Positions 25,490 to 58,906 of a stretch of DNA of 64,000 nt are shown here, piece after piece; position 1 is the first letter of the stretch, and each line of letters opens with the position of its first letter. The position numbers and the translations under genes were made by a program. The notes below the pieces were generated by a model. That model did not search any database. It was not told where the DNA came from and saw nothing but the letters and a program-made list of their open reading frames with translations. The DNA lies in NCBI GenBank assembly GCA_026392455.1, contig JAPLCB010000008.1, forward strand, positions 124,001 through 188,000, in the 5' to 3' direction. This DNA comes from Propionibacteriales bacterium. GTDB lineage: Bacteria; Actinomycetota; Actinomycetes; Propionibacteriales; Nocardioidaceae.

Positions 25490-25643
25490 GTGATCATCGC
25501 TTCGCTCCTCAACAGGTCATCGACCACTCGGCCTCGAGCAAGCTCGGGCGCTCGGTGATCGTCGCTTTGCTCCTCAACGCTTCTCGCTACGCCGACAACG
25601 AGCAAGCTCCTTGCGGCTCCGCTCGTGCGCGTAGTCTCGACCT
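25490..25643 (+). repeat. Promoter-like repeat, two units, upstream of ispF
   Basis: Two units begin GTGATC(A/G)TCGCTT at 25490 and 25555. The first encodes an intact 22-codon micro-ORF ending at TGA 25556-25558. The second encodes a 30-codon frame whose TGA overlaps the ispF GTG. The last unit ends GTAGTCTCGACCT, with TAGTCT (25632-25637) exactly six bases before the ispF start. Both units are in the same orientation as ispF. Confidence 0.75.
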
Positions 25644-26132
25644 GTGATCCTGAGAACCGGCATCGGCACCGACGTCCATCGTCTGGTGCCGGGACGGCCG
25701 ATGCGGATCGCGGGCCTCGACTGGCCCGACGAGACCACCGGTCCCGAAGGTCACTCCGACGGTGACGTCGTGCTGCACGCGATGTGCGACGCCCTGCTCT
25801 CGGCAGCGGGCCTCGGCGACCTGGGCAGCAACTTCGGCACGGCCGAACCCCAGTGGGCCGGCGCCGCCGGTTCGGCACTCCTCGCCGAGACCCTGGTCCG
25901 GGTCCGCGCAGCGGGCTGGGAGGTCGGCAACGTGGCCGTCCAGCTGATCGGGAACCGTCCTCGCATCGGCGACCGCCGCCAGGAGGCCGAGGAGAAGCTC
26001 ACCGCCGACCACCAGATCAGCGTGTCGTTCTCGGCCACCACCACCGACGGCCTCGGCCTCACCGGACGCGGTGAAGGCGTCGCCGCGATCGCCACCGCCC
26101 TCCTCACCCGGAATGCGAGACTCGAACCATGA
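25644..26132 (+). CDS. ispF: 2-C-methyl-D-erythritol 2,4-cyclodiphosphate synthase
   Basis: The 162-residue protein has the IspF metal site [10 protein letters not shown] and [26 protein letters not shown], plus the C-terminal [19 protein letters not shown]. It cyclises CDP-ME 2-phosphate to MEcPP in the MEP isoprenoid pathway. The first unit of an ispF-hydrolase-ispD operon, it overlaps the next gene by ATGA. The promoter appears to come from the repeat immediately upstream, and the start looks leaderless. Confidence 0.96.
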
Positions 26133-26998
26133 AGACCTTCGACGGCCTGCGCCTGGACGTGCGCACCTACGGCCCCGAGGACGCGCCGATCACGGTCGTC
26201 CTGGCGCACTGCTGGACCTTCAACCAGGCGGACTGGCACTTCCAGGTCCGCGACCTGCTGCGCGAGTTCGGGCACCAGATCCGGATCGTCACCTGGGACC
26301 ACCGCGGTCACGGCAACTCCGACCCGGTCACCCGCGCCGACGCCCGGATCGTCAACCTGGCCCGGGACATGAGCGACGTCATCGACACCCATGCCCCGAA
26401 CGGCAAGCTGGTCCTGGCGGGGCACTCGATCGGCGGCATGACGATGATGGCGCTCGCCGAGCTCCGACCGGAGCTGTTCCAGCGGGTCGTCGGCGCTGCC
26501 TTCATCTCCACCTCGTCGGGCGCGATCGACACCGTCACCCTGGGGCTGCCGGAGATGGGCCCGCTGCTGCGCGCACAGATCCCGCGGATGCTGGCGTTCC
26601 GCTCCCGCACCCTGACCCGCAAGGCCCGGCGCCGCGCTCCCATCATCGAGCGCCAGGTGATGACCCGGTTCGTGTTCGGCCGGCCGTTGCGGCTGGCCGA
26701 CGTGGCGCTCGCGGTCGAGGGCCTGATCAACTCGCCCGGGGACACCGTGGTCGGCTTCTACAACGACTGCCTGCAGCACGAGCGGACCTCGGCACTGAAG
26801 GTGTACGACGGCATCCCGACCCACGTCGTCGTCGGCACCCGGGACGTCCTGACTCCCCCGAGCCACGCCCGGCGGATCGCGGAGAACGTGGAGGGCGCCG
26901 TGCTGACCGTGGTCCCGGACGCCGGCCACATGCTCCCCCAGGAGCGTGACCAGCTCGTCTCCGGCGTCCTGGTCAGGCTGGTCCGCCCGCACCTGTGA
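26129..26998 (+). CDS. Alpha/beta hydrolase within the ispF-ispD operon
   Basis: The 289-residue cytoplasmic alpha/beta hydrolase has nucleophile Ser100 in [11 protein letters not shown], an oxyanion-region HCWTF, a cap domain rich in Arg, Asp in [15 protein letters not shown] and His in DAGHMLPQE. It overlaps both neighbours by four bases (ATGA at the start, GTGA at the end), so it is translationally coupled with two MEP-pathway genes. A role in isoprenoid metabolism is only suggested by that position. Confidence 0.85.
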
Positions 26999-27705
26999 GC
27001 ACAGCAGCTGCGCCCCCGCCCAGGACGGCGATCGTCCTCCTGGCCGCCGGATCGGGACGCCGGGTGGGCGCCGAGCAGAACAAGGTGCTGCTGCCGCTGG
27101 CCGGGTCGGCGGTCCTGGCCCACAGCGTCCGCACCGCCCTGAGCGTCCCGGACGTCGTCCAGGTGGTGGTGGTCGTCCGCCCCGAGGACAGGGCAGCCGT
27201 CTCCACGGCCCTGGCCCCGCACCTCGGCGAGCACGACCTCTGGTTGGTCGACGGCGGCGCCGAACGCCACCACTCCGAAGCCCGCGCCCTGGCGGCACTG
27301 GGCCCGGCCATCGAGTCTGGCGAGATCACCGTCGTCGCCGTCCACGACGCAGCCCGACCGCTCGCGAGCACTGCCCTGTACCTCGCTGTGATCGCCGCTG
27401 CCGACCAGGACGGAGCGGCCGTGCCCGCCGTACCGACCGGGCGGCTGAGCAGCCTGGACGGCACCACCGTCGAGGCCGACCTGGTCGCCGTCCAGACACC
27501 GCAGGCGTTCGGCGCACGAGCACTCGTCGACGCCTATGCGGCGGCGACGGTCGACGGCTTCGTCGGTACCGACACCGCAGCGTGCCTGGAGCGGTACACC
27601 GACCTGGTGATCCGGGCCGTCCCGGGTGAACGGACAAACCTGAAGATCACCTTCCCCGAGGACGTAGCGCTCGCTACCGAGCTTCTCCCGCCAAGGAGCG
27701 GCTGA
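26995..27705 (+). CDS. ispD: 2-C-methyl-D-erythritol 4-phosphate cytidylyltransferase
   Basis: The 236-residue protein has the IspD nucleotide loop LLAAGSGRRVGAEQNKVLLPLAG, VHDAARPL, the VQTPQAF segment, TDTAACLE and the C-terminal NLKITFPEDVALA. It makes CDP-ME from MEP and CTP. GTG overlaps the hydrolase stop. Its 3' end overlaps by 32 bases with the convergent IspD-like gene. It lies on the opposite strand to carD, whereas carD and ispD are collinear in mycobacteria. Confidence 0.94.
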   Translation: MSTAAAPPPRTAIVLLAAGSGRRVGAEQNKVLLPLAGSAVLAHSVRTALSVPDVVQVVVVVRPEDRAAVSTALAPHLGEHDLWLVDGGAERHHSEARALAALGPAIESGEITVVAVHDAARPLASTALYLAVIAAADQDGAAVPAVPTGRLSSLDGTTVEADLVAVQTPQAFGARALVDAYAAATVDGFVGTDTAACLERYTDLVIRAVPGERTNLKITFPEDVALATELLPPRSG

Positions 27706-28243
27706 GGGCCTCCAGGACCCTGAGCTCCTCCGCGGAGCCGATCCGGGCGGCGAGCGCGGGGGCCTCGAGCCACTCGATCTCACCCAGGACGGCCAACCGG
27801 GCCACCAGTGCCGCGAAGTCGCTGAGGTCCAGGGCGTCCAGCTGTGCCAGCACCGGCGACGGAACCACCACCGGACTGGTCACGCACCGCAGGGCGGCCC
27901 GGTCCACCGTGTCACCCAGGGAGTCGCCCGCACGTCGCTTGACCGTGTCGGTGACCGGGCGGAACCCGACCACCGTGCGACCGGTCGTCCCGCAGATCTC
28001 GACCGCCTCCGCGAGGAAGTCCGCGGGCGTCAACGGGCAGAGCGGGTCGTGCAGCAGCAGAGGACGGCCCGAGGTGCGGACCAGCCCGAAGTCGACCGAG
28101 GCGTCGTACAGCTGGATGCCCGCTTCCCCGACGGCCCAGGACGCTGCGGCGATCAACGACTCGCCGTGCACCAGGGCGAAGGGCAAGGACCCACGACCGT
28201 CGAGCGGAACCCAGCCGAGCGCCTGCACATCGTCGTCGTCCAC
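27674..28243 (-). CDS. Reduced IspD-like protein (probable non-catalytic paralog)
   Basis: The 189-residue protein aligns with the middle of IspD: LLLHDPLCPLTPADF corresponds to VHDAARPL, and VTDTVKRRAGDSLGDTVDRAALRCVTSP corresponds to the segment ending VDRxxLxxVQTPQ. It lacks the N-terminal glycine-rich CTP loop and the C-terminal NxKIT motif, so cytidylyltransferase activity is not expected. It occupies the position just downstream of carD where ispD is normally found. It is preserved as an intact frame. Confidence 0.7.
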   Translation of the reverse strand: MDDDDVQALGWVPLDGRGSLPFALVHGESLIAAASWAVGEAGIQLYDASVDFGLVRTSGRPLLLHDPLCPLTPADFLAEAVEICGTTGRTVVGFRPVTDTVKRRAGDSLGDTVDRAALRCVTSPVVVPSPVLAQLDALDLSDFAALVARLAVLGEIEWLEAPALAARIGSAEELRVLEALSRSLAGEAR

Positions 28244-28257
28244 GGATCCAGGAAAGC

Positions 28258-28292
28258 AGAAGGCCCCCGATCGCGTAGATCGGGGGCCTTCT
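28258..28292. terminator. Strong hairpin terminator downstream of carD
   Basis: AGAAGGCCCCCGATC (28258-28272) pairs perfectly with GATCGGGGGCCTTCT (28278-28292) around a GCGTA loop, a 15-bp stem. It lies between the carD stop and the start of the IspD-like gene, so it would separate their transcription or attenuate it. Confidence 0.85.
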
Positions 28293-28306
28293 GGTGCAAC
28301 AGGTGC

Positions 28307-28792
28307 TCAGGAAGCGAGGACCTCGTCGAGGATGGCCTCGGCCTTGTCCTCGTTGGTGTGCTCGGCCAGGGCCAGCTCCGACACGAGGATCTGCCGGGCC
28401 TTCGCCAGCATCCGCTTCTCGCCGGCCGACAGGCCACGGTCACGCTCACGGCGCCACAGGTCGCGGACGACCTCCGACACCTTCATCACGTCACCCGAGT
28501 GCAACTTCTCCAGGTTCGCCTTGTAGCGGCGCGACCAGTTGGTCGGTTCGTCCGGGACGATCGCACGAAGTACGTCGAAAACCCGGTCAAGACCTTCCTT
28601 GTCGACCACATCGCGCACCCCGACCAGGTCGAGGTTGCAGGCGGGGACTCGCACCACGAGGTCCTGCTGGGCGACGATCCGGAGTACGAGGTACTCGCGC
28701 TCCTCGCCCTTGATGGTGCGCATCTCGATGTCCTCGATGATGGCAGCCCCGTGATTTGGATAAACAACCGTTTCGCCGACGGTGAAAGTCAT
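28307..28792 (-). CDS. carD: CarD-family RNA polymerase-binding regulator
   Basis: The 161-residue protein starts [23 protein letters not shown], the Tudor-like RNAP-interaction domain (residues 1-65). A helical DNA-interacting domain follows with [40 protein letters not shown] and the C-terminal helices. CarD stabilises open promoter complexes at rRNA and many other promoters. The ATG follows GAAAGGGG, with TAGACT (28820-28825, minus) as a likely -10. Confidence 0.96.
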
Positions 28793-28983
28793 ATGCAGTT
28801 AACCCCTTTCAAGGTGACCAGTCTAACACGGTCCCCGGCGCGTCGATTTCGCGTTTGCGCAGGTCAGACGGCTAATGAGGGGTTGACACATGCCGATGTT
28901 GTGTGCGTGACGGACTACGGTCCGCCGGACGACGTACCGCGTCGCGCCCGCAGCGGGATGCGCGATATGGATAGTTTTCGCCT

Positions 28984-29718
28984 ATGGGAGAGGCAACTGT
29001 GGCTAGACGATCGATCCAGCGCATCCGTGACCTGGTGCGATGCACGCACCCCAAGCAGGCCGTGGTCTTCGCGGTCGGACTGGGAGTCGCAGCCGGCACC
29101 TCGGGCCGTCCCTTCAACGAGGCCGTCACCGTGGCTCTCGCCGTCCTCACCGTCCAGCTGTCCCTGGGGCTGTCGAACGACCTCTGCGACGAGCGGCACG
29201 ACGCCCGCGCCGAGACCCCGGGCAAGCCGCTCGCCGCCGGCCGCATCGACCGGAGCAGCGTGAACTACTGGATGATGGTCCTGATCCTGCTCTCGGTGCC
29301 GCTGTCGGTGTACAGCGGCGTGACCGCGGGCATCGCCTTGCTGCTGACGGTGCCGATCGGCTGGGTCCACAACCGCTGGCTGCACCGGACCGCGCTCTCC
29401 TTCGTCGGCTGGACCGCGACGTTCGCCCTCTACCCCGCGTTCCTCTCGTACGGCGGCTGGGCCGGACACATCCACGGGGACGCGCCGACCTGGGCCGTGA
29501 CCCTGGCCGCGGCCGCCCTCGGCTTCTCGTTGCACTTCGTGACCTCCCTGGGCGACCTGGTCACCGACAACAAGTCCGGAGCCCGCACCCTGCCGCTGCA
29601 GCTCGCGCTCCGGGTCGGCGCACCACGGGTCCTGCTGGTCACCGTGCTGGCGACCGGGGGCGCAGCCTTCGGTCTCGTCACGGCCGCACTGTCCGCGGGT
29701 CTGATCCAGGGGCGGTAG
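28984..29718 (+). CDS. UbiA-family prenyltransferase
   Basis: The 244-residue polytopic protein has the first Asp-rich motif in SNDLCDERHDA and the second in SLGDLVTDNKSG, plus about seven to eight hydrophobic helices. UbiA enzymes transfer polyprenyl groups to acceptors in the membrane. At 244 aa it is shorter than the usual 280-300, resembling the decaprenylphosphoryl-ribose-type or small actinobacterial members. Its acceptor is unknown. TAGTTT six bases before the ATG suggests leaderless expression. Confidence 0.87.
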   Translation: MGEATVARRSIQRIRDLVRCTHPKQAVVFAVGLGVAAGTSGRPFNEAVTVALAVLTVQLSLGLSNDLCDERHDARAETPGKPLAAGRIDRSSVNYWMMVLILLSVPLSVYSGVTAGIALLLTVPIGWVHNRWLHRTALSFVGWTATFALYPAFLSYGGWAGHIHGDAPTWAVTLAAAALGFSLHFVTSLGDLVTDNKSGARTLPLQLALRVGAPRVLLVTVLATGGAAFGLVTAALSAGLIQGR

Positions 29719-29772
29719 GCTGCTGCCGCGTTCCACCCGTTTCTCACGCCTCCCGAGAGGACACGAGTTCTC

Positions 29773-30390
29773 GTGAAGTCCCACGCCCCCCGTAGCACCG
29801 CCCAGCGCCGTACGGCCGTCGTCGTCGCACTGCTGGCTCCGGCCCTGGCCGCTTGCGGTTTCAGCGCTCAGACCGACAAGATCTACCAGGCCGCGCAGGG
29901 AGTCGACGACCGGACCACCTCGGTCAAGATCCTGAACGCCGTGGTGGTCGCCGAGGAGAACGGGTCCGGCACGTTCGCGGGCAGCTTCGTGAACGAGTCC
30001 GGTGAGGCCCAGACCCTGACCCAGGTCGGCGCCGAGGGCGTCACCGCAGCGAAGGCCGTGGCCGCCATCACCGTGGCCCCGCGGCGCCTGCTCAACCTGG
30101 GCGACGCCGTCAAGGGCCCCCAGGGCGGTCCCGCGACCGTTCCCCTCCTGGTCCTGACCGGCACCCCGATCGAGATCGGCCGCTTCGTCCGGCTGACCTT
30201 CGAGTTCTCCGGCGCCGGCAAGGTCGTCCTCAACGTCCCGGTCGTCAGCAGCTCCTCCGAGGTCGGCCGCGAGTTCGAGAACGTTCCGCTGCCGACGAAG
30301 CCCGAGGAGAACAGCGTCCCCTCCCTCGAGGAGACGCCCGCCGGCGAGGTGACCCCGGAGGCCACCGAGTCCGAGACCCCGGCCGAATGA
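29773..30390 (+). CDS. Lipoprotein of unknown function upstream of gpmA
   Basis: The 205-residue protein has a lipoprotein signal with lipobox LAAC near residue 28, an Ig-like region containing [29 protein letters not shown] and [16 protein letters not shown], and a Glu/Pro/Thr-rich tail. The layout resembles copper-chaperone (PCuAC/DUF461)-like lipoproteins, but the Met/His copper ligands are not seen. The GTG follows GAGAGG. Its stop overlaps the gpmA ATG. Confidence 0.75.
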
Positions 30391-31130
30391 CCTACACCCT
30401 GGTCCTGCTCCGCCACGGCGAGAGCGAGTGGAACGCCACGAACCTGTTCACCGGGTGGGTCGACGTAGCCCTGACCGAGAAGGGTCGCGGCGAGGCCGTC
30501 CGCGGCGGCGAGCTCCTGGTCGAGGCAGGCATCCTCCCCGACGTCCTGCACACGTCGCTGCAGCGCCGGGCGATCACCACTGCCGCGCTCGCCCTCGATG
30601 CAGCCGACCGGCACTGGATCCCGGTGAGGCGATCCTGGCGGCTCAACGAGCGGCACTACGGGGCGCTCCAGGGCAAGGACAAGAAGCAGACGCTCGAGGA
30701 GTACGGCGAGGAGCAGTTCATGCTCTGGCGCCGCTCGTTCGACGTTCCGCCGCCGCCGATCGACGACGCCGACGAGTTCTCCCAGGTCGACGACCCCCGC
30801 TACGCCCACTTGGGCACCGAGCTGCCGCGGACCGAGTGCCTCAAGGACGTCATCGCCCGGCTGCTCCCGTACTGGGACGACGCCGTCGTGCCCGACCTGA
30901 CGGCCGGCAAGACCGTGCTGATCGCCGCCCACGGCAACAGCCTGCGCGCGATCGTCAAGCACCTCGACGAGATCAGTGACGAGGACATCGCCGGCCTGAA
31001 CATCCCGACCGGGATGCCCCTGGTCTACGAGCTGGACGAGGACCTGCGTCCGACCGTCCGCGGTGGCCGGTACCTCGACCCCGAGGCTGCCGCTGCTGCC
31101 GCTGCCGCGGTGGCGAACCAGGGCAAGTAG
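30387..31130 (+). CDS. gpmA: 2,3-bisphosphoglycerate-dependent phosphoglycerate mutase
   Basis: The 247-residue protein has the catalytic [18 protein letters not shown], the [14 protein letters not shown] segment, [16 protein letters not shown] and [14 protein letters not shown] with the second catalytic His. It interconverts 3- and 2-phosphoglycerate in glycolysis. The gene lies beside phoU/senX3/regX3, as in mycobacteria. A C-terminal Ala run precedes the stop and a strong terminator follows. Confidence 0.95.
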
Positions 31131-31143
31131 CTCCGAACGCAGA

Positions 31144-31172: not shown

Positions 31173-31217
31173 GCGCGTTGTCCGGCGTACGAGCAAGCTC
31201 GACGCGGACTCGCTAGC

Positions 31218-31871: not shown

Positions 31872-31893
31872 GGAACACAGCGTATTCCTGTTC

Positions 31894-33826: not shown

Positions 33827-33835
33827 TCACCCTGC

Positions 33836-33871
33836 TGGTTGAGGTGCGGGCGAAGCCCGCCTCGAAACCCG
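33836..33871. repeat. Single GGTTGAGG-type palindromic unit
   Basis: GGTTGAGGTGCGGGCGAAGCCCGCCTCGAAACC is an imperfect hairpin (GCGGGC/GCCCGC inner stem, GAGG/CCTC, GGTT/AACC). It lies just after regX3 and may end its transcription. It is the same family as the tandem arrays at 22780 and 35257. Confidence 0.75.
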
Positions 33872-33893
33872 GTTCAGGGTCTAGCCTCGACCC

Positions 33894-33971
33894 GTGATCG
33901 TCGCTTCGTTCCTCAACGGTTTCTCGGCCACTCGGCCACGAGCAAGCTCGGGCGCTCGGTAGCCTCGAACC
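33894..33971 (+). repeat. Promoter-like repeat with intact 22-codon micro-ORF, upstream of serine hydrolase
   Basis: The unit starts GTGATCGTCGCTTCG at 33894, encodes 22 codons and stops at TAG 33960-33962. That TAG is the start of TAGCCT (33960-33965), which sits six bases before the serine hydrolase GTG. The micro-ORF itself is preceded by TAGCCT (33882-33887) with a six-base spacer, so the motif TAGCCTCGAMCCGTGATC flanks the unit on both sides like a duplication. Confidence 0.75.
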
Positions 33972-35261
33972 GTGATCCGTTCGAAGCTCGTCCACGACAG
34001 TCTCGGCATCCCCGACCCGCTCCGCCGGGCACGGATCGTGAAGGACCTCGACTCCGTGACCACGGTCGGCACCGAAGCCGACCCGGCCGACGTCGGGATG
34101 ACCCGCGACAACGTCGAGGCGATCTGGAAAGCCGTCAAGAGCCTCTACCGCTCCGGCATCCACCCGGCTGTCAGCCTCTGCGTGCGCCGGGAGGGGCAGG
34201 TCGTCCTCGACCGCGCGATCGGGCACGCCCGGGGCAACGGCCCCAGCGACCACCCGGATGCAGCCAAGGTGCTGGCCACCCCCGAGACCCCGTTCTGCAT
34301 CTTCTCCGCGTCCAAGGGAACCACCGCGACGCTGATCCACAAGCTCGACGAGAAGGGCCTGCTGCACATCGGCGACCCCGTCGCGGAGTACCTGCCCGAG
34401 TTCGCCCGCAACGGGAAGTCGAACATCACCATCGGGCACGTCCTGTCCCACCGATCCGGCATCCCGAACGCACCCAAGGACGCCCTGAACTTCGACAACA
34501 TCGATGACTACGAGCTCCAGCGTGAGTTCATGTACAACGCCAAGCCACTGTCGCGCGCCGGGACCAAGCAGTCGTACCACGCCGTCACCGGGGGCAGCCT
34601 GCTCGGTGAGGTCGTCCGCGAGATCACCGGCCGCGGCATCCGCGAGGTGCTCGCCGAAGAGCTCCTCGACCCGCTCGGCTTCCGTTGGATGAACTACGGG
34701 GTCGCAGCCGAGGACCTCGGCAAGGTCGGCCTGAATTACCCCACCGGACCGACCCCGATCCCGCCGCTGAGCACCTTCCTGACCCGCGCCCTGGGGGTCC
34801 ACCCCGACGAGGCCACCCGGATGTCGAACGACCCGCGGTTCCTCTCGGCCGTCCTCCCGGCCGCGAACGGAGTCGCTACCGCGAACGAGCTCGGACGGTT
34901 CTACGAGATGCTGCGCTGCGGCGGTGAGCTCGACGGTGTCCGGGTCCTCGAGGAACGCACCATCCGACGCGCCCGGGTCGCCCAGTCCCACCTCGAGGTG
35001 GACGGGAGCCTCGGCCTCCCGATCGCGTTCAGCTACGGGTACATGCTCGGCGGCAAGGTGCTCAGCCTCTACGGCCCCAACACGACCAAGGCGTTCGGCC
35101 ACCTCGGCTGGATCAACATCATGGGATGGGCCGACCCCGAGCGCGCACTGTCGGTCGGGTTGATCACCACCGGCAAGTCGGTGGTCTACCCCGAGGTCGC
35201 GCGCTTCTGGGAGATCGGGCACCGGATCGGCCTGGAGGCCCGAGCGGACCGACGCCGTTGA
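33972..35261 (+). CDS. Serine hydrolase, beta-lactamase/esterase class C family
   Basis: The 429-residue protein has the SxxK nucleophile motif in FSASKGTTATLIH, the second motif Tyr region around SYHAVTGG, and the family block HVLSHRSGIP. The C-terminal HLGWINIMGW resembles the H-G third motif. No signal peptide is seen, so a cytoplasmic esterase is more likely than a cell-wall enzyme. The stop codon lies inside the first unit of the 44-bp tandem repeat that follows. Expression appears to start from the upstream repeat. Confidence 0.85.
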   Translation: MIRSKLVHDSLGIPDPLRRARIVKDLDSVTTVGTEADPADVGMTRDNVEAIWKAVKSLYRSGIHPAVSLCVRREGQVVLDRAIGHARGNGPSDHPDAAKVLATPETPFCIFSASKGTTATLIHKLDEKGLLHIGDPVAEYLPEFARNGKSNITIGHVLSHRSGIPNAPKDALNFDNIDDYELQREFMYNAKPLSRAGTKQSYHAVTGGSLLGEVVREITGRGIREVLAEELLDPLGFRWMNYGVAAEDLGKVGLNYPTGPTPIPPLSTFLTRALGVHPDEATRMSNDPRFLSAVLPAANGVATANELGRFYEMLRCGGELDGVRVLEERTIRRARVAQSHLEVDGSLGLPIAFSYGYMLGGKVLSLYGPNTTKAFGHLGWINIMGWADPERALSVGLITTGKSVVYPEVARFWEIGHRIGLEARADRRR

Positions 35262-35425
35262 GGTGCGGCCGCGCTAGCGGTCGCCTCGAGAACCCTGCGG
35301 GTTGAGGTGCGGCCGCGCTAGCGGTCGCCTCGAGAACCCTGCGGGTTGAGGTGCGGCCGCGCTAGCGGTCGCCTCGTGAACCCTGCGGGTTGAGGTGCGG
35401 CCGCGCTAGCGGTCGCCTCGAAACC
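35257..35425. repeat. 44-bp tandem palindromic repeat, three full units and one partial
   Basis: Units start at 35257, 35301, 35345 and 35389. Each reads GTTGAGGTGCGGCCGCGCTA then GCGGTCGCCTCG and a spacer with AACCCTGCGG. The units are nearly identical (one base change in the third). The core CCGCGCTAGCGG is a hairpin. Near-identity points to recent tandem expansion. The first unit contains the upstream gene's stop codon. Confidence 0.9.
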
Positions 35426-40269: not shown

Positions 40270-41028
40270 ATGAGCACCCAGCACCACCCCGTCGCCGTCG
40301 TCACCGGCGCCAGCAGCGGCATCGGCGAGGCGACCGCACGCGCACTGGCCGGTGCCGGGTACCGCGTCGTCTGTGCTGCCCGGCGTACCGACCGGATCAC
40401 GGCGCTCACCGAGGAGATCGGCGGAACGGCGGTGACCTGCGACGTCACCGACGCAGGGTCGGTCACCGCCCTGGCGGAGGTCGTCGGTCCGCGCCTGGAC
40501 GTCCTGGTGAACAACGCCGGGGGTGCCTTCGGTGCGGATCGGGTGGAGGGCGCCGACCTCGACCAGTGGCGCCAGATGTACGAGGTCAACGTCCTCGGGG
40601 TCGTCCGGGTGACCCAAGCCCTGCTGCCGGCCCTGCGCGCCTCGCGATCGCCGTTGATCGTGAACGTCGGGTCGACGGCCGGACAGGTGGCCTACGTCGC
40701 CGGGGGCGGGTACACCGCCGCGAAGCACGGGCTGCACGCGGTGAGCCAGACGATGCGGCTGGAGCTCAACGGCGAACCGGTCCGGGTCACCGAGATCGTG
40801 CCCGGCATGGTGCACACCCCGGAGTTCTCGCTGGTCAGGTTCGGCGACCAGGCACGTGCCGATGCCGTGTACGCCGACGTCGACGGCCCGTTGGTGGCCG
40901 CTGACGTCGCCGAAGCCGTTCGCTGGGTGGCGAGCCTGCCGCGGCACGTGAACGTCGACGAGCTCGTGCTGCGCCCCGTCGCCCAGGCCGCGCAGCACCA
41001 GCTCCACCGCGGCCCGATCTTCCGTTGA
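40270..41028 (+). CDS. Short-chain dehydrogenase/reductase
   Basis: The 252-residue classical SDR has TGASSGIGEATARAL, the NNAG motif in LVNNAGGAFG, catalytic Ser in VGSTAGQV and YTAAK with Tyr and Lys. The C-terminal PGMVHTPEF is typical. It uses NAD(P)H on an unknown carbonyl or alcohol. ATG follows AGGAGAG. Unlike the SDR at 23054, its catalytic tetrad is intact. Confidence 0.9.
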   Translation: MSTQHHPVAVVTGASSGIGEATARALAGAGYRVVCAARRTDRITALTEEIGGTAVTCDVTDAGSVTALAEVVGPRLDVLVNNAGGAFGADRVEGADLDQWRQMYEVNVLGVVRVTQALLPALRASRSPLIVNVGSTAGQVAYVAGGGYTAAKHGLHAVSQTMRLELNGEPVRVTEIVPGMVHTPEFSLVRFGDQARADAVYADVDGPLVAADVAEAVRWVASLPRHVNVDELVLRPVAQAAQHQLHRGPIFR

Positions 41029-41046
41029 GTCAGGCCCAACACGCCC

Positions 41047-41112
41047 TTGAGTCGGGCCTTCCGCGCGCTTGAGCTCGTGGTCCGCGCGCAAAACGCCCTA
41101 CTCGTGCGCGCG
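41047..41112. repeat. Intergenic repeat element (copy 2)
   Basis: The first 27 bases (TTGAGTCGGGCCT then TCCGCGCGCTTGAG) differ from the element at 18957 in three positions. GCCCTACTCGTGCGCGCGG near 41089-41107 matches its right arm with two changes. It separates the convergent SDR and amidase genes. Confidence 0.55.
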
Positions 41113-47448: not shown

Positions 47449-48027
47449 TCAGGAGGCCTTCTTGGCGGCCTTCTTGGCCGGAGCCTTCTTGGCGGCGGCC
47501 TTCTTGGCCGGAGCCTTCTTGGCCGGAGCCTTGGTCGCGGCGGCCTTCTTGGCCGGGGCCTTCTTGGCCTTCACGGCGGCGACAGCCTTGACGCCGTCCT
47601 TGCGCACGGCGGCGACGAACTTCTCGCCGCGGACGGCCAGGTCGGCGTACGTGCTGTTCAGCTCCTTGAGCGCCTCGTTGAGCTTCGCCTCGAGCTTCGC
47701 GGGCAGCTCAGCGGCTTCCTTCTGGATCTCGGTCAGACGGGCCTCGAACTTGACCTGAGCGTCCTTGGCGTCGGCCTGGAGCTTCTCGACGCGGGCCTTC
47801 GCCTCGGTCTGGACCTTCTTGGAGTCGAACTCGACCTTCGACACGCGGGCCTGGACACCGGAGACCCGGGTCTGGGCGGCGTCGAGCTGAGCCTGGGTCG
47901 CCTTGGTCGCCTCGGTGGCGTAGCCGCGGGCGTACTCGACGGCGAGCTCGGTGGCGCCGGCCGCAGCGAACAGCGGCTTGACGGCTTCGGTCTTGATCTT
48001 GTCGGTGTTGAACTGGGTCTTCGCCAT
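47449..48027 (-). CDS. HbhA-like coiled-coil protein with Lys/Ala/Pro tail
   Basis: The 192-residue protein has a short N-terminal hydrophobic region ([17 protein letters not shown]), a long coiled coil (about residues 45-125) and a basic tail of [10 protein letters not shown] repeats from about 150. This is the architecture of heparin-binding hemagglutinin, with the tail able to bind polyanions including DNA. An XRE regulator lies upstream and DUF2516 downstream, as around Rv0475. Surface adhesion is not proven here; lipid or nucleoid binding is possible. Confidence 0.8.
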
Positions 48028-50842: not shown

Positions 50843-50996
50843 CAGGATTCTCGCGTCGCTCGTCAACGGGTTCTCGGTCACTCGGTCACGAGCCGCTCGG
50901 ACACCCGCTGATCGTCGCTTCGCTCCTCAACGCACCTCGGTCGACCGTCTCCGGGCAAGCTCCGAGCGGCTCGCCTGGTTCGCGTAATCTCGACCC
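50843..50996 (+). repeat. Promoter-like repeat, two diverged units, upstream of histidine phosphatase
   Basis: The first unit (ATTCTCGCGTCGCTCGTCAACG) and the second (CTGATCGTCGCTTCGCTCC from about 50908) match those upstream of ispF. Both have lost the start codon of the micro-ORF and the first lacks its stop. The second unit ends GCGTAATCTCGACCC, with TAATCT (50985-50990) six bases before the phosphatase ATG. Confidence 0.7.
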
Positions 50997-51677
50997 ATGC
51001 GCCTCCTGCTGCTCCGCCACGGACAGACCCACAGCAACACGATCGGCGCGTTGGACACCGCCTTCCCCGGGGCAGACCTGACCGAGCTGGGCACCCGGCA
51101 AGCCCAGGCCGCGGCCAGCGTCCTGGGTGAACGCGGGATCACCGGGATCTACATCTCGCCGCTCGTCCGCACCGCTCAGACCGGCGCTCCGCTGGCCGAG
51201 GCCCTCGGCCTGGAACCGGAGAGCCTCGACGGCCTGCGTGAGATCTCCGCGGCCGACTACGAGATGGCCACCGACGAGGCGTCCATCCTGGGGTACATCG
51301 GCACCGTGGCCGACTGGATCGAGCGACGCCTCGACGTCCAGATGTCCGGGGGCGAGACCGGCCACGAGTTCCTGGCCCGGTACGACGACGCTGTCGGACG
51401 GATCGCTGCCGCCGGGCACGAGACCGCGGTGATCATCAGCCACGGCGCCGCGATCCGGACCTGGGTCGCCAACCGGGTGAGCGCCTCCAGCGTCCACGAG
51501 ATGGCGGCCGAGGGCTTCCACAACACCGCGTGCATCGAGCTCACCGGCCACCCCGACGAGGGCTGGGAGGTTCACTCCTGGATCCCGGACGCGATCGGCG
51601 GCCACCTGCTCGACGACGACTCGGCCCCGGACCCGACCGGCCAGGCAACCGACGAAGTCGCCGAACCGCAAAACTAG
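50997..51677 (+). CDS. Histidine phosphatase family protein
   Basis: The 226-residue protein starts MRLLLLRHGQTHSNTIG, the phosphoglycerate-mutase-like RHG motif, with second His in VIISHGAAIRTW. These are small-molecule or sugar phosphatases. The ATG is leaderless behind TAATCT of the upstream repeat. The stop TAG is part of the KstR-type 14-mer. The substrate is unknown; it lies among sulfur genes without an evident link. Confidence 0.88.
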   Translation: MRLLLLRHGQTHSNTIGALDTAFPGADLTELGTRQAQAAASVLGERGITGIYISPLVRTAQTGAPLAEALGLEPESLDGLREISAADYEMATDEASILGYIGTVADWIERRLDVQMSGGETGHEFLARYDDAVGRIAAAGHETAVIISHGAAIRTWVANRVSASSVHEMAAEGFHNTACIELTGHPDEGWEVHSWIPDAIGGHLLDDDSAPDPTGQATDEVAEPQN

Positions 51678-54021: not shown

Positions 54022-54030
54022 GTCCCGAGC

Positions 54031-54132
54031 GGGCGCAGATGTCCCGCTGAAGTACGCCGACCGGGCGCAGATGTCCCACCTTGGTGGGACATCTGCGCCC
54101 GTTCGGCGTCGGATCCCGGGACATCTGCGCCC
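54031..54132. terminator. Nested palindromic terminator between cysN and manA
   Basis: CGGGCGCAGATGTCCCACC (54062-54080) pairs perfectly with its complement at 54083-54101, a 19-bp stem with a two-base loop. An additional left arm copy (GGGCGCAGATGTCCC, 54031-54045) and right arm copy (GGGACATCTGCGCCC, 54118-54132) flank it. The genes are convergent. Confidence 0.85.
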
Positions 54133-54140
54133 GGTCGGCG

Positions 54141-55325
54141 TCAGACCACGTCCACCAGGCGCGAGTGCATCGCCCGCGATGGCGGGACGTACGCATGGGC
54201 GACCTCGCCGAGACCCTCGACGATGGCACCACGGTCCTCGGCGCTCAGGTACAGGGACTCGCCACGGCTGAGCGTGACCTTGTCCCCGGCCTCGGTGCTC
54301 ACGATGACCTCGCCGCCGGTGCAGATCAGCACGCTGCCGTTCGCCCTCACCAGGTCCACCCCGTCCGGCGCGGCCGGGGAGATCTGCGAGACGGCGAGCG
54401 CGAACTCGACGTGCGCCGGCGAGAAGATCTCGGTGTCGACCACGAAGTCAGGCGTGACCCGAGCGATCCGGGCCATCCCGTCGGCCAGGCAGGCGACCAG
54501 CCCGGCCCGATCGATGTGCTTGCTGGTGAGGCCTGCCCGAAGGACGTTGTCCGAGGTGGCCATCACCTCCAGGCAGAGTCCGCTCAGGTGCGCGTGCATC
54601 ACACCGGTCTCGAGGTACGCGGCCTCTCCTGGCTGAAGCGTCATCCGGTTGAGCATCAGCGAGATGACGACACCGGCATCGCCGGGGTAGTGCGCGGCGA
54701 TCTCAGCGACCGTCGCATAAGCGCGCTTGACGTCCATCCCGAGGGCCGCGAGGCGCCGGCAGGCCTCCACGACCTCGCCGACCTGGTCGCTGCCGACCTC
54801 ACCACTGAGCAGGTACTCGACGCGACGCACGATCCCGGCGAAACCAGGATCGGCGCGAAGGTCGGTCACCAGACGTTCACTCAGCGGTGTGCCCAGCGGG
54901 CCGAGGACGCGCAGGATCTCGGCCGTCTTGCGGAAGCCGATCAGCGAGTCGAAGGTGCTCAGCGCGTAGACCATCTCGGGCTTGTGGTTGCGGTCCTTGT
55001 AGACCCGGTGCGGGGCGTCGAGCGGAACGCCGGCCGCCTCCTCGCGATCGAAGCCGGCTTCTGCGAGCGTCCGCGACGGGTGCACCTGGAGGGACAGCGG
55101 ACGGTCGGCCGCCAACAGCTTCACCATGAACGGCAGATCGCCGGCGACCTCGGTCAGCGGCTGCTCGGTGCCGTCCTCGTTGACCGCGGCGGACGGACTG
55201 AGCGGGTGCGTCCCGATCCAGACCTCGGCGACCGGCGACGCCGAGACGTCTCCCCCGAGGAAGTGCGGGATCGCGTCGGGCGATCCCCAGTCGTAGTTCT
55301 TGACGCCGTTGCGAAGCCGATGCAT
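54141..55325 (-). CDS. manA: Mannose-6-phosphate isomerase, class I
   Basis: The 394-residue type I PMI has the N-terminal NGVKNYDWGS, AEVWIGTHP, zinc ligands in LQVHPS and NHKPEM, and a C-terminal cupin with GEVIVSTEAG. It interconverts mannose-6-P and fructose-6-P, feeding GDP-mannose for glycans. Start ATG. Confidence 0.94.
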   Translation of the reverse strand: MHRLRNGVKNYDWGSPDAIPHFLGGDVSASPVAEVWIGTHPLSPSAAVNEDGTEQPLTEVAGDLPFMVKLLAADRPLSLQVHPSRTLAEAGFDREEAAGVPLDAPHRVYKDRNHKPEMVYALSTFDSLIGFRKTAEILRVLGPLGTPLSERLVTDLRADPGFAGIVRRVEYLLSGEVGSDQVGEVVEACRRLAALGMDVKRAYATVAEIAAHYPGDAGVVISLMLNRMTLQPGEAAYLETGVMHAHLSGLCLEVMATSDNVLRAGLTSKHIDRAGLVACLADGMARIARVTPDFVVDTEIFSPAHVEFALAVSQISPAAPDGVDLVRANGSVLICTGGEVIVSTEAGDKVTLSRGESLYLSAEDRGAIVEGLGEVAHAYVPPSRAMHSRLVDVV

Positions 55326-55380
55326 TGGTCAAGCCTAGATCAGGACCAGGGCGGACCCGTCGGCCTGCTCGACTTTGCGA

Positions 55381-56325
55381 TCAGCCGAGTCTGGGTCGCA
55401 CGTGCAGCCCGACGTCCGGGTCGACCACGACCTCCTGGGCAGCCGCGATGCCGTCGGCGTCGAGCGTCGCCTCCACCGGGACCGCGCGCTTGACCAGGCC
55501 CAGGGCGATCGGCCCCAGCTCGTAGTGCCGGGCGGAGGAACCGACGAAGCCGATCTCCCGGCCGGCGTGGACCAGCGGTGTCCCGACCGCCGGCAGACGG
55601 TTGTCCGAACCGTCCAGGTGCAGCAGGGTCAGCCGACGAGGCGGCCGGCCCAGGGTGTGCACCCGGGCCACCGTCTCCTGCCCCCGGTAGCAACCCTTGT
55701 CGAGGTGGACGGCGCCCGGGATCCAGCCGACCTCGTTCGGGATCGTGCGGTGGTCGGTGTCGAGACCCAACCGCGGTTCACCACGGGCGATCCGCAGCGC
55801 CTCGAACGCCCACATCCCTGCCGCGGGACCGGCAGCGGCGCCGTACGCCTCGAGCTCGGCCCGCGGCACCAGGTCGTACTTGCCGTCCCCCGCGGCGCCG
55901 GGACGCCAGGCCACGGCAATCTCGTCGGTGACCTCGGTGACCTCGACCCGGAGCATGAAGCGCATCCGGTCGAGCCACTCGACCAGAGCCGCTCCAGAAC
56001 CCGGCTCGACGTGGGCCGTGAAGGCCTCGCCGTCGTCAACGCCGTACAGGGCGTGCTCGACGTGGCCCTGCGGCGAGAGGATCAGCGCCACCGTGGGCAC
56101 GCCGGGAGCCAGATCGGTCAGGTACTGGGTCGTCAACGAGTGCAGCCAGGTCAGCCGGTCGGGGCCGCTGACCCGGACGACGTCACGGTGCGACAGGTCA
56201 ACGAAGCCGTCGCCGGAGACCAGGAGTCGCTGCTCGCCGTGGAAGGAGCCGTAGTGGGCGGCAACCGGGGCGTCGAGCCCGTCGCCGGCAACCGCACCGG
56301 GGAGAGCGAGCAACGGACTGGTCAT
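55381..56325 (-). CDS. ygfZ: YgfZ/GcvT-like folate-binding protein
   Basis: The 314-residue protein has the YgfZ signature DKGCYRGQETVARVHTLG and the N-terminal GcvT-type fold (DLSHRDVVRVSGPDRLTWLHS). YgfZ proteins use tetrahydrofolate in Fe-S cluster repair or assembly. The ATG at 56325 (MTSPLLALPG) is chosen. It is downstream of the Fur-family gene in the same direction. Confidence 0.92.
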   Translation of the reverse strand: MTSPLLALPGAVAGDGLDAPVAAHYGSFHGEQRLLVSGDGFVDLSHRDVVRVSGPDRLTWLHSLTTQYLTDLAPGVPTVALILSPQGHVEHALYGVDDGEAFTAHVEPGSGAALVEWLDRMRFMLRVEVTEVTDEIAVAWRPGAAGDGKYDLVPRAELEAYGAAAGPAAGMWAFEALRIARGEPRLGLDTDHRTIPNEVGWIPGAVHLDKGCYRGQETVARVHTLGRPPRRLTLLHLDGSDNRLPAVGTPLVHAGREIGFVGSSARHYELGPIALGLVKRAVPVEATLDADGIAAAQEVVVDPDVGLHVRPRLG

Positions 56326-56353
56326 GCTGGGTCCAACCACAGCGAGGAGCAGG

Positions 56354-56776
56354 TCATTCCGAAGCCTTCCTGGCACAGTCCGAGCAGGACCCGAACACGG
56401 TCAGGTGACCGTAGTCCGGAACGAAGCCGTGCGCTCCAGCCAGCGCCGTCAGAGCGCCCTCCATCGACTCCCGGCCGATGCTGATCACCTCGTGACACCC
56501 GCGGCAGACCAGGTGGGAGTGCTCGTGCCCGGCCGCCGAGTGGTAGGTCGGCGCCCGGTCGGTGAGATGGGCGTGCCGGATCAGGCCGAGCTCGTCGAGG
56601 AGCTCCAGGGTCCGGTAGACCGTGGACAGGTTGATCGCCTCGGACCTGGTCCGGACCTCGGCGTAGATCTCGTCCGGGGTCGCGTGCCCGAGTGCCTCGA
56701 CCGCGGCCAGCACCAGCTCGCGCTGCGGGGTCAGCCGGTGCCCGCTCGCCCGGAGCCGGGTCTGCCAGTCGGTCAC
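56354..56776 (-). CDS. Fur-family metal-dependent regulator
   Basis: The 140-residue protein has the Fur winged helix LRASGHRLTPQRELVLAAVEALGHATPDEIYAEV and INLSTVYRTLELLDELGLI, the metal site HEHSHLVCRGCHEV, and a second CSDC pair for structural zinc. It senses zinc or iron. Which Fur subgroup cannot be told reliably; the CxxC...CxxC pattern is shared by Zur and FurA. GTG start. Confidence 0.93.
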   Translation of the reverse strand: MTDWQTRLRASGHRLTPQRELVLAAVEALGHATPDEIYAEVRTRSEAINLSTVYRTLELLDELGLIRHAHLTDRAPTYHSAAGHEHSHLVCRGCHEVISIGRESMEGALTALAGAHGFVPDYGHLTVFGSCSDCARKASE

Positions 56777-56798
56777 GGCCCCGCACTGCTTCCTGGAG

Positions 56799-57299
56799 TC
56801 ACTGCCGGACCAGCTGCGCGTGGGTGTGTGGTTGCAGCTCCTTGCCCATCGCGGCCATGTCGTAGGCGTAGAGCAGGTCACCGTTGACGTAGCCGTAGAG
56901 GCGTTTGCCGGCGGTGTACTCCTTGGCCGTGCTGGTCCGGGCGACCGCATCGGTGACGATCTCGAACCGCGGCGCCTCGGGGTCCAGCTCACCGTGCCAG
57001 ATCTCGACGAACCCGAGGTTGTGGGCCATCACGACCTCCAGGGTTCCGTCGGGCTGCGGCCGGATGAAGCCGGTCTCCTGCGCGGCTTCCCGGACGTGGT
57101 TGCCGTCCGCATCGATGATCCACGACCGGCTCAGGTAGTGGATGAACGGACGGCCGTCCTGCTGGAAGATGACCTCCTGGCCGAACTCGAAGTCCTCCAT
57201 GCCCTCGTACTCGCCGTGCCCGTTCCCGGCCCAGGTGCCGATGATCCAGGCCAACCGAGCGCAGTTCGGGTGAATGTTCTCAGGGATCTCGAACGGCAC
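56799..57299 (-). CDS. Nitrobindin-like heme-binding beta-barrel (FABP-like) protein
   Basis: The 166-residue protein has the nitrobindin motif IGTWAGNGHGEY near residue 21 and a C-terminal LLYAYDMAAMGKELQPHTHAQL containing the probable heme His. Family members bind ferric heme and react with NO or peroxynitrite. It starts two bases after the small membrane gene, and precedes the Fur gene on the same strand. Confidence 0.9.
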   Translation of the reverse strand: MPFEIPENIHPNCARLAWIIGTWAGNGHGEYEGMEDFEFGQEVIFQQDGRPFIHYLSRSWIIDADGNHVREAAQETGFIRPQPDGTLEVVMAHNLGFVEIWHGELDPEAPRFEIVTDAVARTSTAKEYTAGKRLYGYVNGDLLYAYDMAAMGKELQPHTHAQLVRQ

Positions 57300-57301
57300 G
57301 G

Positions 57302-57415
57302 TCAGTCGTCTCCGGGGTGGTCGGTCAGGGTCAGCAGCTGCCGGATCGCGGCCCACGAGACGGCCGCGACGCCAAGCATCACGAGCGCCAGGACCACGAC
57401 GAAGAAGGCTTCCAC
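57302..57415 (-). CDS. Small membrane protein (37 aa) upstream of nitrobindin gene
   Basis: A 37-residue frame, mostly one hydrophobic helix (FFVVVLALVMLGVAAVSWAA) followed by an acidic tail ending DHPGDD. The GTG has TAGGAT seven bases upstream on the minus strand (57423-57428), and the stop is two bases before the nitrobindin start. It is likely cotranscribed with it as first cistron. No family recognised. Confidence 0.5.
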   Translation of the reverse strand: MEAFFVVVLALVMLGVAAVSWAAIRQLLTLTDHPGDD

Positions 57416-57438
57416 GCAGCACATCCTAGAGTGGTTCC

Positions 57439-57516
57439 ATGGTCCTCGCTTCGCTCGTCAACGCGTTCTCGCCCACTCGGCCACGAGCAAGCTCGGGCGC
57501 TCGCTAGGCTCGACGC
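57439..57516 (+). repeat. Promoter-like repeat with intact 22-codon micro-ORF, upstream of DsrE-like gene
   Basis: The unit starts ATGGTCCTCGCTTCG at 57439, encodes 22 codons and stops at TAG 57505-57507. That TAG begins TAGGCT (57505-57510), six bases before the DsrE-like GTG. The micro-ORF ATG is itself preceded by TAGAGT (57427-57432) with a six-base spacer. Confidence 0.75.
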
Positions 57517-57876
57517 GTGAGAAGCCTGGTGATCAAGTGCACGGCGGGTGCCGACGAACCGGAGCGCTGCTCGCAGGCGTTCACCGTCGCCACGGCCGCG
57601 ATCGTCGCAGGGGCCGAGGTCAGCGTCTGGTTGACCGGCGAAGCCGCGTGGTACGCCGTGCCCGGGAAGGCGGAGGAGTTCGCCCTGCCGTTGGCCGGCT
57701 CCCTGGCCGACGCCCGCGACCTGGTGCTCGAGGCCGGCAGTCTGACGGTCTGCGCCCAGTGCGCCGCCCGCCGGGGCATCACCGAGGAGGACCTGGTGCC
57801 CGGCGCCCGGATCTCCGGCGCCGCGGCCTTCGCCGAAGCGATCCTGACCGACGGCGTCCAGGCGATCGTCTACTGA
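57517..57876 (+). CDS. DsrE/DsrF-like small protein
   Basis: The 119-residue protein has the DsrE-type alpha/beta start SLVIKCTAGADEPERCSQAFTVATAAIVAGAEVSVWLTG and a C-terminal CAQCAARRGI, the position where DsrE sulfurtransferases carry the active Cys. Such proteins carry sulfane sulfur in sulfur-relay systems. GTG is leaderless behind the repeat. Sulfur transfer is a family inference. Confidence 0.8.
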   Translation: MRSLVIKCTAGADEPERCSQAFTVATAAIVAGAEVSVWLTGEAAWYAVPGKAEEFALPLAGSLADARDLVLEAGSLTVCAQCAARRGITEEDLVPGARISGAAAFAEAILTDGVQAIVY

Positions 57877-57880
57877 GCCC

Positions 57881-58801
57881 TCAGCGGGAGTACGGGTACG
57901 AACGGACGAGCGTCCCCGACAACGTCGTGGCCAGGTAGCCGGACTCCCCGAAGGTGTTGGACGCGTACACCCTGACGTTCGGTACGTCGTCGAACGCAGA
58001 CCGGAAGTCGATCGAGACGTGGCTGATGGTGGCGTCCTCGACGTCCAGGCTCCGCTTCGCCCGGCCCATGGTGCGCAGCAGGGCCGCCACGTCGAGCCGG
58101 GTCAGGTCAACGACGCGGGTCCCCGGGGAGGTGGCCCGGACCCCGCCGAACTCGGTCCAGCCGCCGTCGCGGTAGATCCAGCCCGCGTCGCGGTCCCTGC
58201 CCGGCACCGGCACCCGCACGATGGCGTAGTCCTCGTACATCGTCAGCTCGGTGGCCCTCGCGGTGCCGAACCGGTCGCGGTACTGCCGCAGGAAGGTGGT
58301 GATCCCGGCTGCCGTCCGTTCGAAACGGACCACGGTCACCGGGTCCCCGGGTCCCGCAGGGACCGGGTCCCCCGCGCTGGCGCTCTCGACGACGAACGGC
58401 GGCTGCTCGGCTCCCACCTCGTTGTTGCTGGAGGTGCTGAAGACGAAGAGGCCGGCCACGCCGACCAGCACCAGGAAGACCACCACGCCCAAGATCACCA
58501 GCGGGACGAACCGGCTCGCCGCGGGCTGACCGGGAGGAGGCGTGAACGGTGCCGCCTCGGACTGCGCCGGTGCCGGTGCCGCCACGGCGGCAGCACGGAC
58601 GGTCTGGGCCCGGGCGGCCTCGAGCTGGTCGAGGTCGCGCGCGATCAGGCTCAGCTCGGTCAGGCTCTGCGCGGACGAGACGTTGGCCAACCGGATGTCA
58701 CCGTCCACGGCCCCGATCTGGCCGGAGGCGACAGCACGGTTGATCCGCTCCCGGAGCTGTTTGCGATCACCTTCGCCGGGCGCGCGGTGCAGGTCGTCCA
58801 T
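57881..58801 (-). CDS. Single-pass membrane protein with N-terminal DUF1707-like region
   Basis: The 306-residue protein has an N-terminal helical region (GDRKQLRERINRAVASGQIGAVDGDIRLANV) resembling DUF1707, a Pro/Ala linker, one membrane helix (about residues 100-124) and an external domain ending RSYPYSR. DUF1707 proteins are actinobacterial membrane proteins of unknown role. It is divergent from dtd. Confidence 0.65.
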   Translation of the reverse strand: MDDLHRAPGEGDRKQLRERINRAVASGQIGAVDGDIRLANVSSAQSLTELSLIARDLDQLEAARAQTVRAAAVAAPAPAQSEAAPFTPPPGQPAASRFVPLVILGVVVFLVLVGVAGLFVFSTSSNNEVGAEQPPFVVESASAGDPVPAGPGDPVTVVRFERTAAGITTFLRQYRDRFGTARATELTMYEDYAIVRVPVPGRDRDAGWIYRDGGWTEFGGVRATSPGTRVVDLTRLDVAALLRTMGRAKRSLDVEDATISHVSIDFRSAFDDVPNVRVYASNTFGESGYLATTLSGTLVRSYPYSR

Positions 58802-58828
58802 CGCAGCAGCGTAGACCTACGCTGCCCC

Positions 58829-58906
58829 CGGATCCTCGCTCCGCTCGTCAAAGCGTTCTCGGCCACTCGGCCTCGAGCAAGCTCGGGCGCTCGATAGCCT
58901 CGACGC
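58829..58906 (+). repeat. Promoter-like repeat (micro-ORF start lost), upstream of dtd
   Basis: The unit matches those at 33894 and 57439, but the micro-ORF start codon position is CGG. The frame still ends at TAG 58895-58897, which begins TAGCCT (58895-58900), six bases before the dtd ATG. Confidence 0.7.

Follow-up and report, generated by a model that had tools for sequence, protein, structure and literature searches.

A short repeat that inserts at start codons in a genus of Nocardioidaceae and probably supplies its own promoter

The DNA analyzed here is a 64,000 nt stretch of a Propionibacteriales genome (family Nocardioidaceae, contig JAPLCB010000008.1, positions 124,001 to 188,000, plus strand), called the window below; its genome is designated G000. 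It raises the question of why one dispersed repeat should stand at the same distance from the start codons of five unrelated genes. The answer we consider probable is that a short, non-autonomous mobile element of some soil actinobacteria inserts at the RTG start codon of a gene (R, A or G), in the orientation of that gene. A -10 hexamer, a start codon and the 6-nt spacer between them would come with the downstream end of the element, and from these the gene would most likely be expressed as a leaderless one. The start signal of the gene itself appears to be replaced by the promoter and start codon of the element, and the protein is left intact.

Five insertion sites in the window

The typical unit is 78 bp long from start codon to start codon and reads RTG-ATCCTCGCTTCGCTCGTCAACG...GAGCAAGCTCGGGCGCTCGN-TAGNCT-CGNNNC-RTG; in variants, the 3' half is a different one (GGAGCAAGCTCC...GCGTAACCTCGACCC) or the middle is extended. 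In most copies, the DNA before the left start codon also carries a TANNNT hexamer and about 6 nt. Within the window, the hexamers TAGTCT (position 25632), TAGCCT (33960), TAATCT (50985), TAGGCT (57505) and TAGCCT (58895) end exactly six bases before GTG, GTG, ATG, GTG and ATG, respectively, and repeat and gene share their orientation at all five sites, with every unit on the plus strand. In these points the original prediction was correct, and its five gene names are backed by Pfam matches to YgbB (IspF), Beta-lactamase (the serine hydrolase), His_Phos_1, DsrE and Tyr_Deacylase. It had counted five repeats, one at each site; the sites stand, but those before ispF and the histidine phosphatase gene hold two units in series, which gives seven units in total. 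Likewise, the unit at 33894–33971 was correctly placed, but ends in CTCGAA rather than CTCGAC. The features of the five sites, all on the plus strand, are as follows.

25478–25492, plus: probable remnant of the promoter and start codon that ispF had before the insertion, CATGCT-TGCCCT-GTG, at the left insertion edge (CATGATC at the same place in 14 of 22 element-free ispF orthologs)
25490–25554, plus: first unit before ispF, its right end without a -10
25555–25643, plus: second unit before ispF, with the variant 3' half, ending in TAGTCT (25632–25637) and a 6-nt spacer
25644–26132, plus: ispF, GTG start (Pfam YgbB, E = 2.6e-50)
33882–33896, plus: left promoter-like hexamer, spacer and start codon, TAGCCT-CGACCC-GTG, at the serine hydrolase site
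33894–33971, plus: 78-bp unit before the serine hydrolase gene, putative -10 TAGCCT at 33960–33965
33972–35261, plus: serine hydrolase (beta-lactamase-like) gene, GTG start (Pfam Beta-lactamase, E = 1.4e-57)
50844–50907, plus: first unit before the histidine phosphatase gene, start codon decayed to AGG
50908–50996, plus: second unit before the histidine phosphatase gene, with the variant 3' half, start codon decayed to CTG, putative -10 TAATCT at 50985–50990
50997–51677, plus: histidine phosphatase gene, ATG start (Pfam His_Phos_1, E = 6.3e-35)
57427–57441, plus: probable old dsrE promoter and start codon, TAGAGT-GGTTCC-ATG, at the left insertion edge (TANNNT there in 11 of 12 element-free orthologs)
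57439–57516, plus: 78-bp unit before the DsrE-like gene, putative -10 TAGGCT at 57505–57510
57517–57876, plus: DsrE-like gene, GTG start (ATG in 14 of 15 ortholog rows from other genomes; Pfam DsrE, E = 1e-12)
58818–58831, plus: left edge before dtd, with TACGCT, spacer and a start codon decayed to CGG
58829–58906, plus: 78-bp unit before dtd, putative -10 TAGCCT at 58895–58900
58907–59341, plus: dtd, ATG start (Pfam Tyr_Deacylase, E = 3.2e-48)

The first three bases of a unit, which the earlier description had passed over, are a present or former start codon lying behind a second promoter-like hexamer. Such a left hexamer is found at a spacing of 6 before the serine hydrolase (TAGCCT, 33882) and dsrE (TAGAGT, 57427) units; the ispF units are preceded by a degenerate CATGCT (25478) and the dtd unit by TACGCT (58818, spacing 5), and at the histidine phosphatase site none is clear (TAGCAA, 50832). 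The left start codon has decayed at two sites (AGG, 50844; CGG, 58829). Seven core matches occur in the window at three or fewer mismatches, where 0.25 are expected by chance and none of 100 shuffles reached seven. The pattern TANNNT-N5-C-RTG has six matches in the window, all of them at element ends (shuffle mean 2.0; six reached in 2 of 100 shuffles). An Rfam scan of the window returned one tRNA and no match at the repeats.

Copies in related genomes

A search model was built from the sequence of 13 cores, with the promoter and start codon left out of it. It has 24 matches in G000 at E ≤ 1e-7, and matches in 11 of the 24 genomes of the genus (G000 and 10 of the 23 others; 13 are without). 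Under stricter filters, none of 221 genomes from 25 other genera of the family matched, so that the 11 positive genomes among 245 all belong to the same genus. The exact degenerate core pattern, run against one genome per species for 84,980 species (a set that possibly lacks G000 itself), found 36 stretches, which carry the titles Marmoricola, Nocardioides or Nocardioidaceae bacterium. Cultured strains are among these carriers: Nocardioides marmoriginsengisoli Gsoil 097, N. marmorisolisilvae KIS18-7 and N. pocheonensis Gsoil 818. Copies before non-orthologous genes of one genome are up to 97% identical, which favors a recent spread, probably by transposition.

The 117 copies examined comprise 37 from G000 and 80 from its relatives. 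For G000, 30 of 32 pattern places were retrieved and 29 used (L030, a match inside a coding region, was excluded), and a second set of 20 loci contributed 8; the 12 excluded were partial copies, chance matches, or members of a related class that lies where genes end (3'), and they include L037, a copy of the GGAGG form described below that was handled separately. Among the relatives, 82 of 100 matches were chosen and 80 used, weaker matches and some tandem neighbors being omitted, so that the set is biased to well-kept copies. As gene start we took the first RTG on the strand of the element with an open frame of 80 codons, or of 50 where the frame ran off the end of the locus.

With distances and orientations tabulated for these copies, the arrangement proved to be fixed rather than random, and it is evident from the sequences alone, as are the position of insertion, the distribution and the two forms of the element. 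An open reading frame (ORF) begins on the strand of the element 60–165 nt past the core start in 110 of the 117 copies, and at 90 nt or less in 91, in 56 gene clusters. Among these 91 copies directly before a gene, TANNNT stands at exactly 6 nt in 84 and at 7 nt in one, and six have GGAGG or GGACG instead; the same procedure on the reverse strand, as a control, gave TANNNT at 6 nt in 8 of 89. A further 19 copies, among which arrays and long forms are frequent, lie farther from the gene, and in 16 of these TANNNT is again found at 6 nt. From this geometry we infer the label of leaderless promoter.

The left edge could be read in 104 copies without a preceding unit, 96 of which have RTG at the exact place and 73 TANNNT 6–9 nt before it. 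The RTG is thus lost in 8 and TANNNT unseen in 31, some of which perhaps never had one, and L135 precedes a gene with neither on its left. At the right end, the T, A and T of the -10 are invariant in all 38 cluster representatives at offset 74, a set to which the GGAGG form (offset 73) does not belong. The left start codon and left -10 look free to decay, unlike the right -10.

An ordinary repeat of the repetitive extragenic palindromic (REP) type, or one resembling a miniature inverted-repeat transposable element (MITE), might land anywhere upstream, with the native promoter merely following it. The element is indeed short, dispersed, GC-rich and genus-specific, but a single spacing and orientation in 84 of 91 copies, together with an old promoter on the far side of the element at nadA, dsrE and ispF (next section), leave this explanation very little probability.

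Orthologous sites with and without the element

Orthologs of five target genes (dtd, ispF, nadA, dsrE and fpg) were collected from 24 genomes, and 97 upstream regions were compared. The element is present in eight of these (dtd 1, ispF 2, nadA 2, dsrE 2 and fpg 1), and five more, judged by eye, resemble remnants in which the 3' end of the element survives together with its -10 (L198 at dtd, L270 and L271 at dsrE, and L294 and L301 at fpg). The cleanest case is nadA. Its empty site in G013 and G018 reads GTGGAAGGATGGACCC-ATGACC, and in G000 and G017 the same 16 bases are followed by ATGATCC, the element and TAGGCTCGGC(C/G)C-RTGACC. At dsrE, TANNNT precedes the ATG in 11 of 12 element-free relatives, and G000 keeps TAGAGT-GGTTCC-ATG on the left of the element, the gene starting with GTG after TAGGCT-CGACGC. 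CATGATC is found within the last 30 nt before ispF in 14 of 22 element-free relatives; in G000 and G020, GGCATG is still there to the left of the element, and TAGTCT or TAGCCT lies to its right. All 22 element-free orthologs of fpg have TANNNT. A sixth site lies within an operon, where six of six element-free genomes read ACCGC-ATGA and G020 reads ACCGC-ATGATCC, the element, and GCGCT-GTGACG. Compared with their element-free orthologs, the filled sites of these six genes place the insertion at the start codon, with the old start region staying on the left.

Both promoters are readable in 38 copies, and the left and right start codons of these are GTG/GTG in 21, ATG/GTG in 9, ATG/ATG in 8 and GTG/ATG in none, so that 29 have identical codons. 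Taken with the empty sites, these pairs suggest an old start codon on the left and a GTG brought in by the element; the remaining pairs would follow if GTG later mutated to ATG.

The original prediction had read the repeat as a mobile or copied promoter module. This is supported by the geometry and by the element-free orthologs, in which a copy with a -10 can be seen to have been added at a pre-existing start, but two amendments are called for. The first is that the element adds a second promoter abutting the start and need not make the gene leaderless, because TANNNT already lies 5–9 nt before the start in 41 of 84 element-free orthologs. The second, that it belongs with repeats already known to insert at start codons, is taken up below.

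The mini-ORF and the two forms of the element

Read from its left start codon, the typical unit is a frame of 22 codons, and the TAG that closes it belongs to the unit's own -10. Where the left start codon is intact (80 copies of the promoter form), this mini-ORF ends at the TAG or TAA of the -10 in 68, which places its stop 12 nt before the gene start, at an overlap with the gene start in 5, and elsewhere in 7. Compared with the consensus, 52 changes are synonymous and 131 are not; since this synonymous share (52 of 183 single-change codons, 0.284) shows no excess over the random expectation of 0.312, the peptide is not conserved. The RNA folds of five copies were no more stable than those of shuffles (z from -0.87 to 0.52). 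A conserved regulatory leader peptide, or an RNA attenuator before a regulon, would explain an open frame that begins at the old start codon and has fixed end positions. It is hard to reconcile with the lack of constraint on the peptide, the ordinary RNA stability of the five copies, a start codon lost in 8 of 104 copies and target orthologs that are mostly without the element (8 of 97 filled), and we give it scarcely any weight.

Six of the 91 copies, before five genes, read CTCGGA(G/C)GCTCGNNN(C/T)GTGA. This minority form has CTCGGAGGCTCG in place of the CTCGGTAGGCTCGNNNCGTG of the promoter form, from which it differs by the absence of one T, and it is that T which creates both the -10 and the mini-ORF stop. 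The unit is 77 bp long rather than the usual 78 bp (offset 74 in 67 of 91 copies). In all six, the mini-ORF extends to a TGA that overlaps the GTG of the gene, and GGAGG (five copies) or GGACG (one) lies 8 nt before the gene start. A genus-wide pattern search for the GGAGG form recovered these six along with two additional places, of which one is a weak match; L037 adds another copy. At four of nine loci examined (L314, L315, L319 and L037), a long upstream ORF ends in a stop codon that overlaps the RTGA of the element itself. Left context and right form are associated (Fisher P = 0.014 for 65 copies and 0.013 for 44 clusters, 14 copies with both or neither context being excluded), but some of the left 'coupled' calls are probably chance ORFs and the association is only suggestive.

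Another explanation accepts insertion at the start codon and takes the right -10 to be unused. The old promoter would then continue to work, the element would form a transcribed leader of 77–78 nt, and the gene would be translated by re-initiation or coupling after the mini-ORF. A class I mycobacterial interspersed repetitive unit (MIRU) in M. bovis is reported to behave as such a leader (PMC4128351), the mini-ORF does open at the old start codon, its stop lies 12 nt upstream of the gene start in 68 of 80 copies, and the minority form fits the mechanism. Against this explanation, the right hexamer and its 6-nt spacing are retained in 84 of 91 copies, with T-A-T invariant in 38 of 38 representatives, whereas on the left the start codon is lost in 8 and TANNNT unseen in 31 of 104, and L135 precedes a gene though both are missing. 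We regard a purely transcribed leader as unlikely.

If the downstream end of the element is itself the promoter, as we prefer, the old promoter and old start codon would after insertion read the 22-codon mini-ORF, which has no evident peptide function, and the gene would be expressed, most likely leaderless, from the -10 of the element, its TAG serving as the mini-ORF stop. In the minority form, the lack of one T would abolish both -10 and stop and leave a Shine-Dalgarno-like GGAGG 8 nt before the start; with its mini-ORF running to a TGA that overlaps the gene start, this form could sit in operons by means of translational coupling, like mycobacterial MIRUs. That the ends act as promoter and ribosome-binding site, respectively, we infer from their sequence and spacing.

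Similarity of the two ends and mode of spread

Several observations weigh against the proposed mechanism or limit it. Form and context are not strictly matched: a -10 lies to the left of three of the six GGAGG copies (two genes), and a possible coupled ORF to the left of four copies with a -10. A strict TANNNT 5–9 nt before the start is present in just 41 of the 84 element-free orthologs of the five genes, and in 0 of 22 for ispF, 4 of 15 for nadA and 4 of 13 for dtd, so that a leaderless start before the insertion is evident for some of the targets but not for all. Three of the 19 farther copies have no TANNNT at 6 nt at the first long ORF, and for 7 of the 117 copies no gene start was found. 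Lastly, the left and right spacers of a copy are more alike than those of permuted pairs (3.61 versus 3.00 of 6 positions; none of 2000 permutations as high), and 7 of 38 left/right pairs are identical over 12 nt, a likeness not predicted by a single, simple insertion event. Tandem arrays that grow and shrink (arrays are found in L019, L023–L025 and L026–L027), or insertion beside an older remnant, could be its source.

L033, L176, L177, L182 and L190 represent a single insertion before the same gene, common to five genomes. Within L176 and within L190, the left and right promoter 12-mers are the same, and they differ between the two genomes, as if the ends evolved in concert.

Such likeness would also fit a spread without a transposase, in which start regions that have TAGNCTCG...RTG in common exchange sequence through ectopic gene conversion or template switching. 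The 12-mers identical in 7 of 38 pairs and the similar spacers agree with this, as do the junction of tandem units, which is the same as that of insertions, and the insertion common to five genomes, where left equals right in two and the letters differ between them. The nadA and dsrE sites, however, did not resemble the element before the insertion, and we think such an exchange a rather unlikely route, transposition being the preferred one.

Comparison with other repeats

Mycobacteria are known to contain start-codon-inserting repeats, which are used as typing markers. In the literature, MIRUs appear to be mobile, to insert at start codons and to couple an ORF of their own to the gene with a -4 spacing (PMC12548453), are given a length of 40–100 bp (PMC2734929), and measure 77 nt in class I (PMC4128351); a gene that is leaderless in M. 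marinum is also reported. The element described here is similar in its length of 77–78 bp, which lies within the MIRU range, its insertion at the start codon in gene orientation, its internal ORF and its tandem arrays, and the overlapping stop and start are present in six of six GGAGG-form copies. The overlap of an upstream ORF with the RTGA of the element, at the four loci named above, likewise matches what is described for MIRUs.

It differs in that most units bring a -10, a 6-nt spacer and a start codon. As to the coupling of the internal ORF, the copies give no uniform picture: among 80 of the promoter form, the mini-ORF ends 12 nt short of the gene in 68 and overlaps it in 5. A motif search for units of the mycobacterial type, run on 396 genomes of the phylum, found them in 6, which all belong to one genus; read in the direction of the gene, these units are ...ATGA...GAGCGAAGCGATGAGGAGGAG...ATGA. 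At six of seven loci examined, a gene starts there, preceded by a ribosome-binding-like GAGGAG (GAGAAG in one) and no -10. The two are also found in different genera, core-pattern matches among the 84,980 species carrying no mycobacterial title. Similarity in the same sense to one mycobacterial unit (L342) gave a local score of 11, which 476 of 500 shuffles reached; on the opposite strand, the score was 23, which 2 of 500 shuffles also reached, and stems from a 14-base match that perhaps reflects a compositional motif common to both. The element therefore behaves as a MIRU with a promoter would, without having the sequence of one. This is the second amendment to the original reading: the element is a start-codon-inserting repeat of the MIRU type, and a minority of its copies have a ribosome-binding-like sequence and no promoter.

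Putative mobile promoters are promoters that occur as repeated, moving DNA before unrelated genes. The present element resembles them in having moved into new sites, as the filled and empty orthologs indicate, and its TANNNT at 6 nt in 84 of 91 copies is a candidate promoter; it differs in also bringing a start codon and landing at the old one. REP elements, their paired forms (REPINs) and MITEs with outward promoters, such as Correia repeats, are short, non-autonomous and dispersed, as is this element, but its position and orientation are fixed to start codons, and it does not form the stable hairpin of REP and REPIN sequences in the five copies folded. Our literature search on mobile promoters gave nothing relevant among the matches listed, and one of open-licence papers on MIRUs, leaderless genes and Nocardioides repeats gave no description of this element family among the matches listed.

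Here, then, a family of unlike sequence in another actinobacterial genus follows the same insertion logic, and it seems to solve the problem of being tolerated by means of its own promoter and start codon. The chances appear to us about even that the family swaps promoter and start codon in a single step, in two forms one base apart (the promoter form for genes that come first in a transcript, the ribosome-binding form for those inside operons), and that the delivered promoter stays after the body of the element has decayed, giving promoter turnover within the genus. With both filled and empty sites available in related and partly cultured species, direct tests of promoter replacement, of translational coupling and of how the element inserts are possible.

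Other repeats

A related but different repeat, GTGATCGTCGC...CGAGCAAGCTCGGCT...CTCGCTCCTAGGCGTAG, was seen in L013/L014 (G000:C4:264850-264985) and L043 (G000:C3:235005-235060), and L036, which lies beside an apparent tRNA, resembles it. The L043 copy seems to be at the 3' end of a gene, in antisense, with TAGGCGT-like direct repeats at its borders. Within the window, tandem units of 44 bp (GTTGAGGTGCGGCCGCGCTAGCGGTCGCCTCGA...) and, related to them, the dispersed repeat GGTTGAGGTGCGAGCGGAGCGAGCCTCGAAACCC jointly occupy 35213–35421, 22773–22981 and 33830–33871; one copy of the dispersed repeat lies directly before the serine hydrolase insertion. Dispersed TTGAGT(A/C)(G/A)GGCC... repeats are present at 18957–18983 and 41025–41073, and 15-bp repeats at 47453–47587, inside a minus-strand ORF (47449–48027), read as an alanine/lysine-rich tail.

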